From a virus: DNA of 60,382 bases. Position numbers and translations under genes: made by a program. The notes under the pieces are model-generated. The model had not been told where the DNA came from and ran no database searches. It saw only the letters and a list, made by a program, of their open reading frames with translations. Where the stretch lies: positions 1-60,382 of the IMG/VR virus record IMGVR_UViG_3300020470_001595; one strand, given 5' to 3'. This document shows, in pieces, positions 17,471 through 57,025 of the stretch (the stretch's first letter is position 1; each line of letters starts with the position of its first letter).

Positions 17471-17878
17471 ATGCATTTACAGGACAGATTGTACAATTTC
17501 ATTATGAATTTCAATCTTAAAAAAGAGAATGAAACTAACATTTATGAATCACCTGATGGTGGCAATACTGTATATGTTAGAAAATCTAATCAAGATCCTA
17601 AATTTAGATCTAGAGTTATTATAAACCATGATGATCCATTTATTGATGAATTAGTATCAAAAGGATATACATTTGATATTGGTAATTCATGGTATCGCAG
17701 AAGATGGTCAACAAATAATGGTTCTGAATCTATTGAAGAAGTTTACCAAATGGTTGAACATGGTGATAATAAATCATGGAAACACTTGATGATTGGGTTC
17801 AATAATGAGGTATTTTATGAAGAACCAGTCGATAAAGTGTCACAACAGAGGGTTGGCAAGGACTTAGACCTGCTATAA
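17471..17878 (+). CDS. Hypothetical protein
   Basis: A 135-residue protein, mixed alpha/beta, with a Tyr/Trp/Arg-rich middle (NSWYRRRWSTNNG) and an acidic C-terminus. The last 15 or so codons contain the AAAGTGTC element and most of the promoter at 17834-17879, so the 3' end serves as both protein code and control DNA. Function unknown. Confidence 0.7.
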   Translation: MHLQDRLYNFIMNFNLKKENETNIYESPDGGNTVYVRKSNQDPKFRSRVIINHDDPFIDELVSKGYTFDIGNSWYRRRWSTNNGSESIEEVYQMVEHGDNKSWKHLMIGFNNEVFYEEPVDKVSQQRVGKDLDLL

Positions 17879-17879
17879 T
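17834..17879 (+). promoter_or_regulatory. Sigma70-like promoter with AAAGTGTC upstream element
   Basis: TATAAT at 17874-17879; AAAGTGTC at 17834-17841, 32 bases upstream. A partial -35 (TTGGCA, 17853-17858) lies at a short 15-base spacing. The flank CCAGTC before the element is identical to that at 25433. The start point would fall at about 17885, exactly where the long RNA stem begins. Confidence 0.6.
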
Positions 17880-17884
17880 GAGTA

Positions 17885-17986
17885 TGCGAAACAGTCAAGG
17901 GATCACTAAGTTTGAATCTAGTCTGACTTAGAAGCAGACACATGACGATTCAGTAATTGACTTCCCTTAGTCCCTTGATGTTTCGC
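17885..17986 (+). ncRNA. Structured 5' leader RNA
   Basis: Bases 17886-17902 pair with 17971-17986 in a 16-bp stem with one bulged G (17894). Inside, CTAAG (17906-17910) can pair either with CTTAG (17966-17970), extending the stem, or as CTAAGT with ACTTAG (17926-17931) in a local hairpin, so two folds compete. It sits between a strong -10 box and the gene at 18015, whose start lacks a Shine-Dalgarno sequence. A regulatory leader is inferred; a free small RNA is also possible. It lacks the 7-bp acceptor and T-arm geometry of a tRNA. Confidence 0.55.
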
Positions 17987-18014
17987 TCACCTACACACTT
18001 GCATTTATTATTTT

Positions 18015-18323
18015 ATGCCAACTGCTGCACCTGTTACGAAGAAAGTATCAACAACTCCTCGTAAAAGACGCACTCGTAAAGTAACAACAACTCCTAAAAA
18101 GACTGTTACTAAGGCAACAACGAAGAAATTAAAAAGACCTGCTAAACCAGTTTTGACTCTTAATCATTATAAGAGAGACTTCCAGTCAAGAGTTAAAATT
18201 CATAACTATGAGTTTAACTTATTTGTGGAAGATTGCAAAAAAGGTTATCAATTAGCTAACAAATCTCTTCGTAGTTTCTATGAGTATGCCAGCACTTCTT
18301 ACAAAGCACACTTCAATGTGTGA
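18015..18323 (+). CDS. Lys/Thr-rich, histone-H1-like basic protein
   Basis: A 102-residue protein with a very basic, low-complexity N-terminus (TPRKRRTRKVTTTPKK and similar, about residues 8-45) like a histone H1 tail, then a folded-looking C-terminus (about 50-102, YEFNLFVEDCKKGYQLANK). Nucleic-acid binding is inferred from charge. It is alone in a unit: promoter at 17874, structured leader, gene, terminator 22 bases after the stop. Target unknown. Confidence 0.75.
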   Translation: MPTAAPVTKKVSTTPRKRRTRKVTTTPKKTVTKATTKKLKRPAKPVLTLNHYKRDFQSRVKIHNYEFNLFVEDCKKGYQLANKSLRSFYEYASTSYKAHFNV

Positions 18324-18344: not shown

Positions 18345-18366
18345 CCCCCTATTCAGGGGGTTTTTT
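18345..18366 (+). terminator. Rho-independent terminator
   Basis: CCCCCT (18345-18350), loop ATTC, AGGGGG (18355-18360), then TTTTTT. It ends the unit of the Lys-rich protein. Six bases after the T tract comes TATAAT for the next unit. Confidence 0.85.
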
Positions 18367-18371
18367 ATTGC

Positions 18372-18377
18372 TATAAT
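18372..18377 (+). promoter_or_regulatory. -10 box of the folded small-RNA unit
   Basis: TATAAT at 18372-18377, directly after a terminator T tract. No good -35 hexamer at 17 bases, as that position falls in the hairpin. GTGACACCTAAAG at 18320-18332 resembles the GTGACACCT-TAAAG of the 10667 element but at a longer distance. Confidence 0.45.
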
Positions 18378-18383
18378 GAATGT

Positions 18384-18558
18384 GTTGAGGGATATGTGGT
18401 TCCTATGCCCCAGTTCTGGGGGTTCAGGTGTAAGCGATTCCCATAGGTTAAATTTGGACTCTTGGGTGAAACCCATTACAGTTAGTCCCACTCTCTCAAC
18501 TGCTGCATGTCCCTTTGGTGGTTTCAGACATGGAGGCGATAGGAAACCACCATTTTTT
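18384..18558 (+). ncRNA. Putative folded small RNA (about 175 nt)
   Basis: Bounded by TATAAT (18372) and an intrinsic terminator (ending 18558). Nested pairings read directly: GTTGAG 18384-18389 with CTCAAC 18495-18500 (P1), plus GTGG 18396-18399 with CCAC 18488-18491; CCTATG 18402-18407 with CATAGG 18442-18447 (P2), holding hairpin CCCCA/TGGGG around loop GTTC; GGACT 18456-18460 with AGTCC 18484-18488 (P3), holding TGGGT/ACCCA around loop GAA. The last C of the GTGG/CCAC helix and of P3 compete. A 64-codon frame crosses it, but its ATG overlaps the -10 box and it runs past the terminator, so an RNA product is favoured. Confidence 0.6.
18517..18558 (+). terminator. Rho-independent terminator of the small RNA
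   Basis: GGTGGTTTC (18517-18525) pairs perfectly with GAAACCACC (18543-18551) around a 17-base loop, followed by A and TTTTTT (18553-18558). It closes the RNA unit 18 bases before the ArdA-like gene. Confidence 0.8.
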
Positions 18559-38300: not shown

Positions 38301-41300
38301 TGCGCCTAAGATCATATATTATAGTTTATTTACTCCTTCTGGTATATCTACTGCTGACGGTACTGTATTTAATGGATCTGAAATAAAATATATTGATAGT
38401 TTATATACTGATAATTATTCAATTATTAGTATTGGGGATACTACCTTCAATCTTAATCTACAAGATAAACCTGAATCTTTATATTATGATTCTGGTATTG
38501 CGGATATTAGTTATACTACAAGTTCTGCCAATGCTACTGGTGGAATTGCATCAACAAGAATAACTAGTCCTGGATTTAACTATTCTAGACTTCCTGGTAT
38601 TTCCAGTATAGGAGATGCTGGTGAGAATGGTGTAATAATTGCCGAATCACTAAAAATTAATAAATTAGACTCTTTGACAGTTCCAGAAGATGTTTATGGA
38701 TATCCTTCTGATAACACTCTTAAACCAGATGCTTTTGTTCCTAGAGTTATCAATATTGATAATTTTGGGACTCTTGAAGAAGTTAATGTTGTTTATGGTG
38801 GTAAATTCTACATCACTGCACCAGCTTTAGTTTTATTTGATAAAGGAACTGGTGATATTTTAGATAATGGACTTATTACTTGTGAATTAAGCGATTCTGC
38901 TGTCACTAGCGCAACCATTTCAGTACCTCCAATTGGATTGTCTGGTAATGATTACGGTATTGCTCCTGTTAGAAATAGTAATGGTCTTAGTATCCTTAAT
39001 GTACAAGCAGCTGCAGGAATATTAACCTGTACAATTACTACTCCTGTTTTGGGTTATGTTAAAGAACCAATAAAGATTGGTGATAAAATGCAAATTGAAG
39101 GTGTTGCAATAGATGCTGGAAGTGGTACTGGATATAACTCTGGAGATTATAAATTTGCTTCAATTGAAGTTACTGATTACAATGATGCTGTTAACCCAAG
39201 AGAAGTTACTTTTGATTTAAATGGAATCAGTACTAATCCTGGTACTGGTGCAACAGTTGCTTATGGATTTGGTCAATTGACTCAAGAAGATTATATTGCT
39301 AAATTTGAAGTTATTAAGGGATCATCAAGATTTATTGAAAATGAACCATTTAAACGAAATAACAATCCTATCGCAGATGTTGCTTTGGATTTTATTGACT
39401 CTAATGCTGCTAAAATTATAGTTAGTGGTGCTGAGCCTTTAGAAATTGATGATATATTGATAGGTAAATTAAGTGGTTCTCAGTGTAGGATTGTTGGTAT
39501 TAAGGAATTTGCAGGAAGTTTTAATATAGCGTCTTCTGTTAAGACATTAGTTGGTTGGAGGGATAATGTTGGAATTATTAATGATGGTAATCAAGTATTG
39601 CCAGATAATGATTATTATCAAAATATGTCTTATGCAATTGACAGTCCTAAGACATATGAAGATTTAATTACCTTTGTTAATGATATAGTTCATCCATCTG
39701 GACTTAAAAACTTTGCCAATACTGAAGTTATGGCATTGGGTGATCCAGGTGAAACAAATATTCCAGCAGAAGACGCTGGTGGATTAGTTCTTGACTTTAT
39801 TGGAGATCCTCTTAGAGTTGACTCAATATACCCATTTGATATGGCAAGAGATTTTGAATCTCAAGGTAATATCTCTAAATTTGTAGAATTAAGAAATACT
39901 CGACTTTCTGACTTTATTTTAAACAAAACAAATAGAGTTCTTAATATTGACGATATTAGTCCTAAATTTGTGTCTAATGAGTCTAATGATTTGAGTGATT
40001 ATAGAATTGTTGCTACTTATCCTGCAGGAAGGTTCTTCCAAAGATTCTTAACACAAACTGTTCATCAAGCAGAAGATCCTACTAAAAACCAGTATCAGTT
40101 TAATGAATTTATTTCAGTAACTGTTGATGAAGATACTTATCTTCTTCAGAAGAATGAAATGAAGAATTATGATCAAGTTGGTCTTTCTACTGGATATGTC
40201 ACATTTGATACTGAGTATTCTCCTGCGAAATCAGAAACACAGTTAATTGTCCGTCCAAATGAGCCATTTGACACAGATTATGAAGTTAAGTCATTACAAA
40301 CATATTTTTCAGATTCTATAGGTACTGGAAATACAGCATTTGGTCATATTAGACTAGAAGGTGGTGTAGCACAAATTGGTGCAGCAAGTACTCTTGGAGT
40401 TTCGGTTACAGGTAATATTTTTGGAATATCTACTACTTCTTCACAAGCTGGTGTTGTACAAGTACTAGTTATTGATAATCCTGGTCCAAATTCACCAAAA
40501 CAAGTTGATTACTTAGAATATGCAATTATGCATAATGGTGTTGACACATATTTGACCGAATTAGCATCATTTAACTCAAAACAAAATCTAAGTGGTCTTT
40601 CTGGTCCAAACTTTATTGGTACAGTAACATCTAAGATTGAAGGTGGTTTAGTTAAGTTTGATTTTGAAAATGGTCGTACAAATACAGTATCTGTAAAATA
40701 TAAGTCTATTATAGTTGATCCATCTACTGTTGGTGCAAATAATTATAGATTTAAGATTCCATTTACTCCAGATGGTACAGAAAGGACAGGAAGATTTGAA
40801 GTTACCAGTCAATCAAAAGCTGGCATTTCTACAATTGTTGGTATAACAAGTCTTACAGATTTATCTGTTAAGTCTACAATTCATGTTTCTTATGGCGCAA
40901 CTCAATCATTACATCAGATTTATATGTTATCTGATCCTGAGAAGAGTCAAACATTCCTTACCGAAACCCCACTCGCATCTGTTGGTTCTACAACTGGTAT
41001 AGGAACATTTGGAACTACTTATAGATCTGATGGTACTTATGGATTAGAATTCCACCCATCAGTTGCTGGTATTGTTAGTGTTACTGCTTACAATGAAGTA
41101 TTATACAAAGTATTAGACCCTAATGGTAGTATTGGTGGTATTGGTGAAATTAATTATGGTCAAGTATATGAAAATGCTAACCAATCACTTTACCTTGGTA
41201 TTAACAATAGAAACATCAAATCATTTGATTTGACTTATCAAGGAATACCTATCTATGCTCGTGAAACAAATATTGCGGATCCTTCAGCAATATCTTATAA

Positions 41301-55300: not shown

Positions 55301-56649
55301 GTAGTATCTACACTGGTGAATATGCACGAGTATCTTGCTTCAATCATGGAATGTATGGTCCAGGCAATAAGGTTGCTATTAGTGGAGCAGCTCCAGATAC
55401 TCTACCTACTGTAACATCAACTACTATCAATTCTACAACTAGCTCCATTGCTATTGGTGATAGTACAGGATTTGATGTATTTGAAGGAGTACTTGTTAGT
55501 GCTGCTAATACTGCATATGCTATTATTAACAACGAAGTTATTTCTTATACTTCAGTTGGTATTAATACTTTAAGTGGTATTGTTCGTGGTGTTGATAACA
55601 CTCAACCTATTAACCATGAATCTGGGTCTCCTATTCAGAAGTATGAACTTGCTGGAGTTGGTCTAAGTAAGATCAATAAGACTCATGATGTTTCTACTAT
55701 AGGTAGGAATATGGATGATTATATTATTCAGATTGATAGAGAAGGTAGAGCAACTGACATTTCAGGTCTAACACAACCACAACTTTCATTTAATGCTGAA
55801 TCTTATGGTGGTGGTAGTCATTGTCATTCATCTAAGAATATGATGTTTGACACAGTTACCCCTGTATTTGATGTAACAACACCTGGTCCTAATGATTCTC
55901 TGACTGTAAGTCTTAGAACTGTTAGTGGTACTAGTGTAGATGGTAATGAAACATCATTTATTGATCAAGGATTTGAAGATTTTATTGTTAATCAACCAAC
56001 TAAGTTGCCAACCAATAGAATAGTCGCTTCCGAAGTAAATGAAGATGCTAGATTGACCAATCTCTTTAGAAATAGATCTTTAACTGCTAGAGTAACATTG
56101 AGCAATGGGGAAGATGAAACAAGTTCTCCAATGATTTGCTTAGATACTATGGCAATGAAGTTCTCATCTAATAGGATTAATAAACCAATCGATGATAACA
56201 GTTATCCTCTAGATAAGAGATCTAATCAACTTACTGGGGATCCTCATACATCTTACTATGTTTCTAAGTTAATCACTATTAAGCAACCAGCGAGTTCCTT
56301 AAAGGTTATATTTGATGCATTTAAACCTGCGTCTTCTGATTTCCGAGTTCTCTATAGTTTGCTTAGACCAGATTCCAGTGAAATCGATCAAAAGTTTATA
56401 CTCTTCCCAGGGTATAAGAATAGTGTTGATACCACTGGTGATGGATTTGGAGACACAGTAATTGATCCTGCAAAGAATGATGGTCGTCCTGATAAGTATG
56501 TTACTCCTGGAGAAAACTTCAAAGAGTATCAATACACTATAAATGACTTAGAACCTTATACTGGGTTTGTTATTAAGGTTGTTTTCAGTGGCACTAATCA
56601 GGCACAAATTCCTATCATTAAAAACATGAGGGCAATTGCATTAGCATGA
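49336..56649 (+). CDS. 2437-residue virion structural protein (DUF4815-like), with Pro10 and Arg-rich linker
   Basis: It begins with SPYYDDFDRSDNYHKVLFKPG and LPVQARELTSLQSILQNQIE, typical of a large cyanophage baseplate/tail family (DUF4815-like, from memory). Middle parts are beta-rich; a coiled-coil segment lies near 1105-1130 (EDRLEHLEEVTSLSLLEQK). Residues 1563-1572 are ten prolines, then about 20 residues, then an Arg-rich stretch at about 1594-1618 (RRRQRRRSRRRRGRR), then DPLAQSF. The C-terminal part (to FSGTNQAQIPIIKNMRAIA) looks like a beta-sandwich. Position after gp8 corresponds to T4 gp9/gp10. Late-class, with overlapping small genes behind. Confidence 0.75.
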   Translation: MPQQTNLNISPYYDDFDRSDNYHKVLFKPGLPVQARELTSLQSILQNQIEQFGSHMFKEGSVVIPGGITYDGDYFAVQLDPTHLGTDVEVYIQDLVGKRIKGETSGIKAKVINYIPASESRTSTATIYVKYVAPGPSGSFDFFRDSELLLMEESLTYGNTTINAGSSIANTIQQDSCSSASAASISSGVYFVRGAFVRVNQQTVILDQYDNQPSFRVGLQVVESAINAKEDPGLYDNAKGFSNYAAPGADRLKIELKLAKKDVNDFDDTDFIEILRVRSGIVEKQLSGNSDYNRIEDYLAQRTHDESGDYTTNPFFINILDSLNDRMGSEGIFYATDTTPEGNTPDESLACVRLSAGTAYVKGYQYETFGETLDVDKPRTTSDKIEETFNLRLGNRLRLNGVQGITTFRNSIDLQTGISSEKVGDAKVYNFGLVDSKYKDNSTEFDAYLYDVQLYTKLLINDPVSNAEVGQSAYIEGQESGATGYAVAAGAGSSTITLTQVSGHFQSGERLNFKGNQNLSRVVDKVISYSMDDVENVQQSNTFYAKKKLNLATPYNIGDSDVRIATNGDTTSTGNTFDRFKPGDIVIYYRSNQTLPNHNVVTSVAADGASMKLAALTTNSNLFTGTLPGSTFEGRIYKGEQQLTNEDNAGLYLKLPAPNISDIDFTGAELLLSDQVTGESTDANGVLVVNTSSLTLDDVTFVAFDQERYQVQYSSGTVANITQDQVVVTNSTLTINGLAFSESNIKVNVTVAKSNIKNKTKEYKRSEQVSIVYSSKDISGTNANSSNNDGLTQSGLYGVRVQDEEICLNYPDVANIVAVYESLDTNVPLFDKLVFTSTDPIFQNAVVGEVIIGEDTNAVARIVAIDAGSSSISIVYKTIDKFRLLETLLFQESNTSATLQSITLGKYKDVTNSFTLDKGQREQYYDYSRLLRVNESYVPTKQLLVVLDRYEIPSSDVGDVFTVNSYDSERFAKDIPAIGKSGIRATDTLDFRPRVATFVPNSATVSPFFPSNRVIDSGSRIVTPNESSKFKYQHYLGRIDKVILKTVGDVVIDKGIPSANPKPPADQPDAMTLATIVWPPYLFDTSNAQVYLIDNRRYTMRDIGDIEDRLEHLEEVTSLSLLEQKIENLQVKDADGLDRFKSGFFADSFKNKKLVDISSPIDIDVDRGHLKPLTDLSSIDMQLLPGTEQSPETLDFTQDFALLDENAVKTGRMVTLKYEEELFVDQNFATRVENLNPFLVHAYTGEMKLNPSSDNWINTQQTQTLSTQVIRRRVFDTRVSATTVDGGFGQDELSASTNEFVSNVERDDITSRNTYIAQETFDPFCRSRNIEYNCTGLRPETKFFQYFDSLGNVDVIPKVIGITNVIGAFTVGETITSLVNGETYRFRLCRPDHKKGPIAAPTTTFELNPLDRNETLPTAYSQGSTILNIDTAALATAAQGDFFGYLPEGAVVSGETSGAQATISDLNLWSDVYGDLAACIWLRDPFASPTPLARVRSGEREVKVTSDPNNVVYHKGSTANSVATAVYTAIGTTRIVQTDVSVTTLETTTIQRDVSLTFTNRRPPPPPPPPPPVIINNTTFIDRTVTNNITVTGRGGRGPQRRRQRRRSRRRRGRRGGDPLAQSFKTDISGCYLTSIDLYFYTMADPTIPCWFEVRTMELGQPTEQLVTPDARVVLTGNDVTLSNDASIATNIKFPSPIYLEPETEYCFVAGSPLNTWEIYTAEMGQTAINAQNLPSAAGRVYSNQFMVGSMFKSQNASTWTPCQFEDICFKIYSAKFVESDAVVTFQNPPVRANNGILPALNLNPIQTLPKKAALGITTTTNAGLIGTVFTVGRKVGDASATYRYGYIEDVGGPVQTGGTLAVGIQTNGEGYGTPSSSSVSTYAITGQGAGLKLGVTVGTGNSGITALTIQDDGQGYKVGDIVGIVTAEMSGAGSGVRIGINSLSGIDTLYLTNIQAEEFTNAASVNYFHDLGTVIDSGLDVTRYDETGSIYTGEYARVSCFNHGMYGPGNKVAISGAAPDTLPTVTSTTINSTTSSIAIGDSTGFDVFEGVLVSAANTAYAIINNEVISYTSVGINTLSGIVRGVDNTQPINHESGSPIQKYELAGVGLSKINKTHDVSTIGRNMDDYIIQIDREGRATDISGLTQPQLSFNAESYGGGSHCHSSKNMMFDTVTPVFDVTTPGPNDSLTVSLRTVSGTSVDGNETSFIDQGFEDFIVNQPTKLPTNRIVASEVNEDARLTNLFRNRSLTARVTLSNGEDETSSPMICLDTMAMKFSSNRINKPIDDNSYPLDKRSNQLTGDPHTSYYVSKLITIKQPASSLKVIFDAFKPASSDFRVLYSLLRPDSSEIDQKFILFPGYKNSVDTTGDGFGDTVIDPAKNDGRPDKYVTPGENFKEYQYTINDLEPYTGFVIKVVFSGTNQAQIPIIKNMRAIALA
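54022..54195 (+). repeat. Poly-proline tract and Arg-rich stretch in the 2437-residue protein
   Basis: Ten CCN codons at 54022-54051, then from about 54115 a purine-rich run of AGA/CGA/AGG codons. The composition differs sharply from the surrounding beta-rich sequence, marking a linker or a nucleic-acid or anionic-surface binding patch. Confidence 0.75.
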
Positions 56650-56840
56650 TTCGAGTAGAAGGTAAACCACATCTTTATAGAGATGAAACTGGGGCTATCA
56701 TTAATGATGATAGCTCTGGTTATTCTGCTTATATGAATGCAAAATCTAAAAAAGCACTTGAAAGAAAAGAGCTAGATACTATGAAACAAGAGATCTCTGA
56801 AATAAAGGAGATGCTTGCCAAAATTACATCAAAATTATGA
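56646..56840 (+). CDS. Small protein with C-terminal coiled coil
   Basis: A 64-residue protein coupled to the large gene by ATGA. The second half is a heptad-like helix (ERKELDTMKQEISEIKEML). Probably a minor structural or assembly factor; overlaps the next gene by ATGA. Confidence 0.7.
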   Translation: MIRVEGKPHLYRDETGAIINDDSSGYSAYMNAKSKKALERKELDTMKQEISEIKEMLAKITSKL

Positions 56841-57025
56841 GAGACCCACATATTGAACATTTAAGATTCCTACATGGGGATGAATGTGTACCCACAAAAG
56901 TGGCAGAATTGGGAGACCTTGAAATAATAAGAAATGATATAGATCGATTAGACTTAAAAGTCAGTCAAATGACACAAGCCTTACAAGAAGTACTAACAGA
57001 GATTAAGAAGATAAATACCTTATAG
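56837..57025 (+). CDS. Small protein with coiled coil
   Basis: A 62-residue protein whose C-terminal half is also heptad-like (NDIDRLDLKVSQMTQALQEV). It follows a gene of similar design, so the two may pair. The late box at 57010 lies in its last codons. Confidence 0.7.
   Translation: MRDPHIEHLRFLHGDECVPTKVAELGDLEIIRNDIDRLDLKVSQMTQALQEVLTEIKKINTL
57010..57017 (+). promoter_or_regulatory. Late-promoter-like box GATAAATA
   Basis: GATAAATA, 28 bases before ATG 57046, in the end of the preceding gene; same spacing as at 5371. Drives the terminal fibre cluster. Confidence 0.55.

Follow-up and report, generated by a model that had tools for sequence, protein, structure and literature searches.

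A predicted structured leader RNA family of T4-like marine cyanophages with nested exchangeable modules

Described structured RNAs and the present locus

The 5' stem-loop stabilisers of the Escherichia coli ompA type consist of a helix at or near the 5' end of an mRNA, whatever gene it carries. GOLLD and ROOL are ornate, multi-domain, phage-linked structured RNAs of unknown function. Structures of GOLLD and ROOL are given in PMC12286853. The manA RNA (RF01745) occurs in T4-like cyanophages and marine metagenomes ahead of genes that differ in function (Weinberg et al. 2010, PMC2864571), and marine cyanophages also have wcaG (RF01761) as a small structured leader RNA (PMC2864571); with glnA, abiF, PhotoRC-II and CfrI, both are among the RNAs reported from cyanophages (PMC2864571, PMC9964418).

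Here we describe RNA A, found in the window, which is a viral contig of 60,382 nucleotides (positions 1 to 60,382 of IMG/VR record IMGVR_UViG_3300020470_001595). The DNA of the window matches the Prochlorococcus phages P-SSM7, P-SSM2 and P-SSM5, and the genes near RNA A encode a ferredoxin and an anti-restriction protein and, as recognised by eye, a tryptophan-halogenase-like protein and a DNA methyltransferase; the contig is therefore that of a T4-like marine cyanophage (Kyanoviridae). By comparative sequence analysis, the leader that it carries is one copy of an undescribed, predicted structured RNA family of these phages. The coordinates of the features are collected in Table 1.

RNA A is like manA in being a structured leader-type RNA of T4-like cyanophages and like wcaG in being a small structured marine cyanophage leader, but it is none of the six RNAs named above. 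It differs from manA in sequence and fold, and the manA covariance model matched neither RNA A nor any other part of the window. In each of five complete genomes that bear RNA A, manA scored once over the cut-off, at other places than RNA A and, in P-SSM2, P-SSM7 and S-SSM4, far from it. RNA A and manA can nevertheless share a neighbourhood, since one locus (L197:3836-6422) has RNA A in the same 2.6 kb as a tRNA and one or two manA-like RNAs. No match to wcaG was obtained in the window at gathering level, nor in 15 records, the latter search having no positive control. Beyond the helix of the ompA-type stabilisers, RNA A has a conserved core whose loop letters are invariant and an insertion loop in which modules are swapped, and it occurs in one copy per genome; compared with GOLLD and ROOL, for which no Rfam match was found, it is about 90-150 nt long and is located at leaders.

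The search of Rfam 15 with the window and 21 related loci gave no match at RNA A or at the second RNA described below, R2, and no description of RNA A was found in the open-access literature searched. Absent from Rfam 15, RNA A is a new leader RNA family, which its nested exchangeable modules set apart.

Table 1. Positions of RNA A, RNA R2 and associated features in the window
Feature	Positions	Strand	Basis
Promoter-like element: TTGGCA 17853-17858, 15-nt spacer, TATAAT 17874-17879	17853-17879	+	sequence
RNA A, whole hairpin; closing stem P1 17886-17902/17971-17986, extended by 17906-17910/17966-17970	17886-17986	+	fold, model match, covariation
P2, UGAAUC 17913-17918/GAUUCA 17947-17952; internal loop UA 17919-17920/ACAUGAC 17940-17946	17913-17952	+	covariation, near-invariant loop letters
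P3, GUCUG/CAGAC (17921-17925/17935-17939); apical loop ACUUAGAAG 17926-17934, the insertion site of RNA modules in other phages	17921-17939	+	pairing, inserts
Conserved unpaired segment separating P2 from P1 on the 3' side: GUAAU (window), GUAAUGCAC (most relatives)	17953-17957	+	alignment columns
Lys-rich protein, 102 aa; in the window, RNA A happens to precede this gene	18015-18323	+	ORF
Intrinsic terminator, CCCCC/GGGGG and T6; end of the RNA A transcription unit	18345-18366	+	sequence
TATAAT of the next unit, 6 nt ahead of R2	18372-18377	+	sequence
RNA R2, a further undescribed structured RNA that shares the island with RNA A as its partner	18384-18500	+	model R2, 119 bits (window = seed)
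Pseudoknot-like module F, in which GGUGGUUUC pairs with GAAACCACC across the stem CAUGUC/GACAUG	18505-18552	+	compensated in relatives

Fold, conservation and promoter position of RNA A

An initial annotation of this region had proposed a leader RNA closed by a 16-bp stem that starts where transcription from the TATAAT at 17874 should begin. The hexamer and the stem are both present, the stem lying at the predicted start of transcription, and the leader proves to be a genuine RNA element by its fold and by its conservation in relatives. The fold has a free energy of -38 kcal/mol, compared with -24.4 +/- 3.2 kcal/mol for dinucleotide shuffles (z = -4.2; 0 of 200 shuffles). The 16 pairs of P1 are divided into 8 + 8 by the bulged G17894; P1, P2 and P3 all form in the window, as an elongated hairpin with compensatory changes, and the window copy also carries the letters by which the family is recognised (unpaired UA / AYAUGA, AC..AGAAG and UAA) in the form of UA, ACUUAGAAG, ACAUGAC and GUAAU.

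Members of the family were gathered through relatives of the Lys-rich ORF, by scans with core patterns, by BLAST with consensus copies and finally with a covariance model, R1, built from eight short copies including that of the window; a first DNA pattern, AAACAGTCAAGGGA, was discarded since it gave mostly chance matches. The window scores 67.9 bits (E 4e-14) against R1, a match by construction as it is one of the eight seeds. R1 gave 63 matches, 54 of them distinct, in phage contigs and in the isolates P-SSM7 (at 39718), P-SSM2, P-SSM5, S-SSM4 and S-SSM6b. Each of these five complete genomes has exactly one match, and the match is likewise single in the window and in every other record that has one (22/23 records). 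In the pattern scan of bacterial genomes, the matches among those listed come from unrelated organisms and look like chance ones. Under strict filters, R1 had no match in 386 cyanobacterial genomes drawn from the phylum, in a search that lacked a positive control, and hosts may still carry RNA A.

Covariation, which the initial annotation had proposed as a check, is seen in P1, P2 and P3 alike. In the alignment of the 54 distinct sequences, 24 of the 25 pairs are changed on both sides, 97.6% of the pair cells are standard (99.1% paired in P2, 99.3% in P3) and none of 500 shuffles attains even one of the five measures; because the sequences were aligned to the structure, these counts lean towards it. 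As a control, sliding the partners by 1-3 columns reduced pairing to only 35-54%. In unaligned relatives, P2 variants can be read by eye as CCUUUC/GAAAGG, CUAAAC/GUUUAG, CCUAAC/GUUAGG, CCCGAC/GUUGGG and UCUUUC/GAAAGA, next to UGAAUC/GAUUCA in the window, and the P1 sequences diverge completely yet still pair. G-U cells outnumber A-C cells by 67 to 8, and therefore the structure is selected, and acts, as RNA of the + strand. The unpaired letters UA, AC, A(C/U)AUGA and UAA are nearly invariant, columns 133-135 being U in 52, A in 54 and A in 54 of the 54 sequences; this invariance is partly built in, because core letters stood in the search patterns (ATGACC..GGGTAATGCA, AGAAGCAG..AYATGAC and CCTGTAAATCTTAGAYATGA), while the covariation of P1 and P2 is not affected.

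The initial annotation also regarded the segment CTAAG (17906-17910) as able to pair in two ways, in the manner of a switch. Both pairings are possible in the window, but with unequal weight: pairing with CTTAG 17966-17970 has a probability of about 0.5, in competition with another inner pairing, and pairing with CTTAG 17927-17931 one of about 0.06, the fold forced to contain it having -33.2 vs -35.3 kcal/mol, that is, 2.1 above the minimum. Among nine short-loop members tested, this second pairing extends to 6 bp only in the window and to 3-5 bp at best in the eight others, and the loop ACUUAGAAG is conserved in relatives that have no CTAAG partner. The alternative pairing is thus weak and special to the window copy, and we rejected it as a conserved switch.

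The position of the hairpin relative to the promoter is shared across the family. In 45 of 53 copies of RNA A, the end of a TATAAT-like hexamer, with one mismatch allowed, lies 3-8 nt ahead of P1, compared with 11% of random positions, and a perfect TATAAT stands there in 28 of 53, compared with 1.2%. The closing stem is thereby predicted to begin where the adjacent sigma-70-type promoter should start transcription, with the start site read from DNA; in the window P1 begins 6 nt past the TATAAT, which puts a helix at the predicted 5' end of the transcript, as in 5' stem-loop stabilisers. A subgroup of RNA A copies has another P1, GAGAAACAG...TGTTTCTC or similar (L279:3090-3173, L274:3401-3483, L311:1959-2100, L316:3959-4087 and L337:28-111). 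Here TATAGT or a similar hexamer abuts the stem, with no clear TATAAT in the scanned range, and another promoter type may be used.

RNA R2 and the exchangeable modules

Behind the terminator of the RNA A unit comes the segment 18384-18552, where R2, which has a promoter of its own, precedes module F and a T-run; an anti-restriction-like gene lies immediately downstream. In an alignment of eight R2 sequences, 11 of 27 pairs are changed on both sides (0 of 500 shuffles), and R2 is conserved in P-SSM2 (at 56699), P-SSM5 and many contigs. Its copies mostly read TANNNT, six bases, GTTGAG, with the 6-nt spacing that is also found in the window. The cross-stem pairing of module F, present at 10 loci, is compensated in relatives as UGUAGUUUC/GAAACUACA and GGUAGUUUC/GAAACUACC.

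The apical P3 loop of RNA A is an insertion site, the modules that occupy it differing among phages, and some of the same modules also occur inside the R2 hairpin or alone. Module C was found inside RNA A at 6 loci, next to or in R2 at 7 and alone at 14, and module B in RNA A at 4 loci, in R2 at 1 and alone at 9, where the classes 'alone' and 'next to R2' were set by distance; module I occurs in RNA A, in R2 and alone. Nesting also takes place in the opposite direction, the P2-P3 core of RNA A lying within R2 at five loci (L323, L283, L309, L377 and L266), and at a further locus (L298) R2 directly follows RNA A with no ORF between them. The P-SSM2 genome has its modules A, C, D, R2 and E together in 55824-56902 and, at the sensitivity used, nowhere else.

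Methyltransferase and anti-restriction genes are found in the neighbourhood of RNA A. We tentatively describe this arrangement as a cyanophage 'RNA island', in which RNA folding domains would be exchangeable cassettes, each present about once per genome, nested in each other's hairpin loops or lined up downstream of a promoter, with genes for DNA methyltransferase and anti-restriction proteins close by. It is perhaps an RNA-made arsenal for counter-defence or host takeover, although we consider the description as a whole more doubtful than the function suggested below for RNA A itself. RNA A (P-SSM2, P-SSM5, P-SSM7, S-SSM4 and S-SSM6b), R2 (P-SSM2 and P-SSM5) and the portable modules are unannotated in these well-studied laboratory cyanophages. 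Their combinatorial, nested layout is unusual and would offer a tractable system for studying the evolution and exchange of functional RNA domains in phages; direct testing is possible because P-SSM2 and P-SSM7 have a recorded host, Prochlorococcus NATL1A.

Several smaller observations concern the modules. The recurring RNA modules B to S (L138, L003, L258, L310, L348 and others) are about 28-76 nt long, mostly 80-100% identical between phages, and found alone, in series or nested in the loops of RNA A or R2. R2 occurs in two copies in one contig (L138; G006:1218-1337 and 2127-2258) and singly elsewhere. Module D (ACGAGGAGATGGATGTGCC..., L003:2338-2390 and 17 loci) has an SD-like GGAG and an ATG that opens a short frame read as 'MDVPLGSQPKKELTS'; it may mislead gene callers, being probably not a gene start but an RNA module.

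Following genes and candidate functions

RNA A stands ahead of at least eight unrelated genes, among which are a DNA methyltransferase (L194, L199 and L207), an anti-restriction-like protein (L379), members of PHROGs 1987, 818, 662 and 38427, and several short basic proteins. Most copies precede an ORF, usually with 18-32 nt from stem to AUG; the distance rises to 170 nt or more where further modules lie in between. Some copies are followed by no ORF or are nested in R2. The initial annotation suggested that, as the gene at 18015 lacks a Shine-Dalgarno sequence, its initiation might depend on the fold. The start codon indeed has no such sequence, but this is ordinary in the window, because only 9 of the 34 + strand ORFs (at least 90 aa, ATG start) have an SD-like motif.

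Strong conservation at the RNA level, combined with independence of the following gene, suggests that the RNA itself has a function. As the core is gene-independent and kept even away from the 5' end, we infer that RNA A may be a portable domain that binds one specific partner in trans, and give this reading a probability of roughly 0.45. Its core would bind a putative host or phage protein, or another RNA, and could help in host takeover or counter-defence by acting, for instance, as a decoy or a scaffold; the RNA would be produced as part of an early unit's leader, and its 5'-terminal closing helix may protect the transcript against host RNase E. A trans-acting RNA would, however, need no ORF behind it, and, since most copies precede an ORF at short distance, RNA A may act in cis on translation or mRNA lifetime; the single copy per genome fits a single-target cis element too.

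A cis-acting role as a 5' cap is on the unlikely side. The helix at +1 and the folded domain would hide the 5' end from host RNase E and so lengthen the life of an early mRNA for any gene. RNA A and the unrelated R2 both set their first base pair 3-8 nt past the -10 hexamer, and the P1 sequences are fully divergent yet paired. Stem-loops in 5' UTRs have been reported as protective of bacterial mRNAs (PMC7509114), and in Prochlorococcus infected by P-SSP7, another cyanophage, RNase E is induced, phage transcripts reportedly being shielded by antisense RNA (PMC9692554). Such a cap leaves unexplained the invariant loop letters, the single copy per genome and the core nested in R2 off the 5' end.

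Less likely again is a cis-regulatory aptamer, in which a putative ligand or protein on the conserved internal loops would control translation of the next gene, as proposed for manA and wcaG. The two conserved asymmetric internal loops, the usual distance of 18-32 nt to the AUG and the likeness to manA, also a cyanophage leader RNA and also present once in each of the five complete genomes, would agree with this, but the downstream genes are unrelated, the stem-to-AUG distance reaches 170 nt or more, and some copies have no ORF. A conserved expression platform of the riboswitch kind was not found in RNA A: the element contains no terminator, there is no SD to sequester, and the alternative pairing is not conserved. 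Neither kink-turns nor known self-cleaving ribozyme cores were recognised by eye in the loop letters, and no ribozyme of Rfam matched.

A palindrome acting as DNA (replication origin, recombination or transposition site) would account for one copy per genome and for modules that move between positions, but is very improbable in view of the excess of G-U over A-C cells on the + strand, the fixed orientation and promoter spacing, and the asymmetry of the conserved internal loops. Equally improbable is the autoregulation put forward in the initial annotation, with RNA A as an operator bound by the Lys-rich protein: short basic proteins do follow RNA A in the window, P-SSM7, L005, L010, L265 and S-SSM4, but the majority of copies precede unrelated, non-basic proteins, and the gene also exists without RNA A. 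The protein has nine relatives in viral contigs, with RNA A in only part of them; some homologues have module B in the same place (L004) and others neither RNA (L006-L009, L011 and L012).

The Lys-rich protein has one weak PHROG match, of unknown function, and tblastn against phage records gave no match. Its N-terminal Lys/Thr/Pro tail (TPRKRRTRK) is common to PSSM7_057 of P-SSM7, the C-terminal part of which is unrelated, and the two proteins are predicted to form a modular family of small basic proteins.
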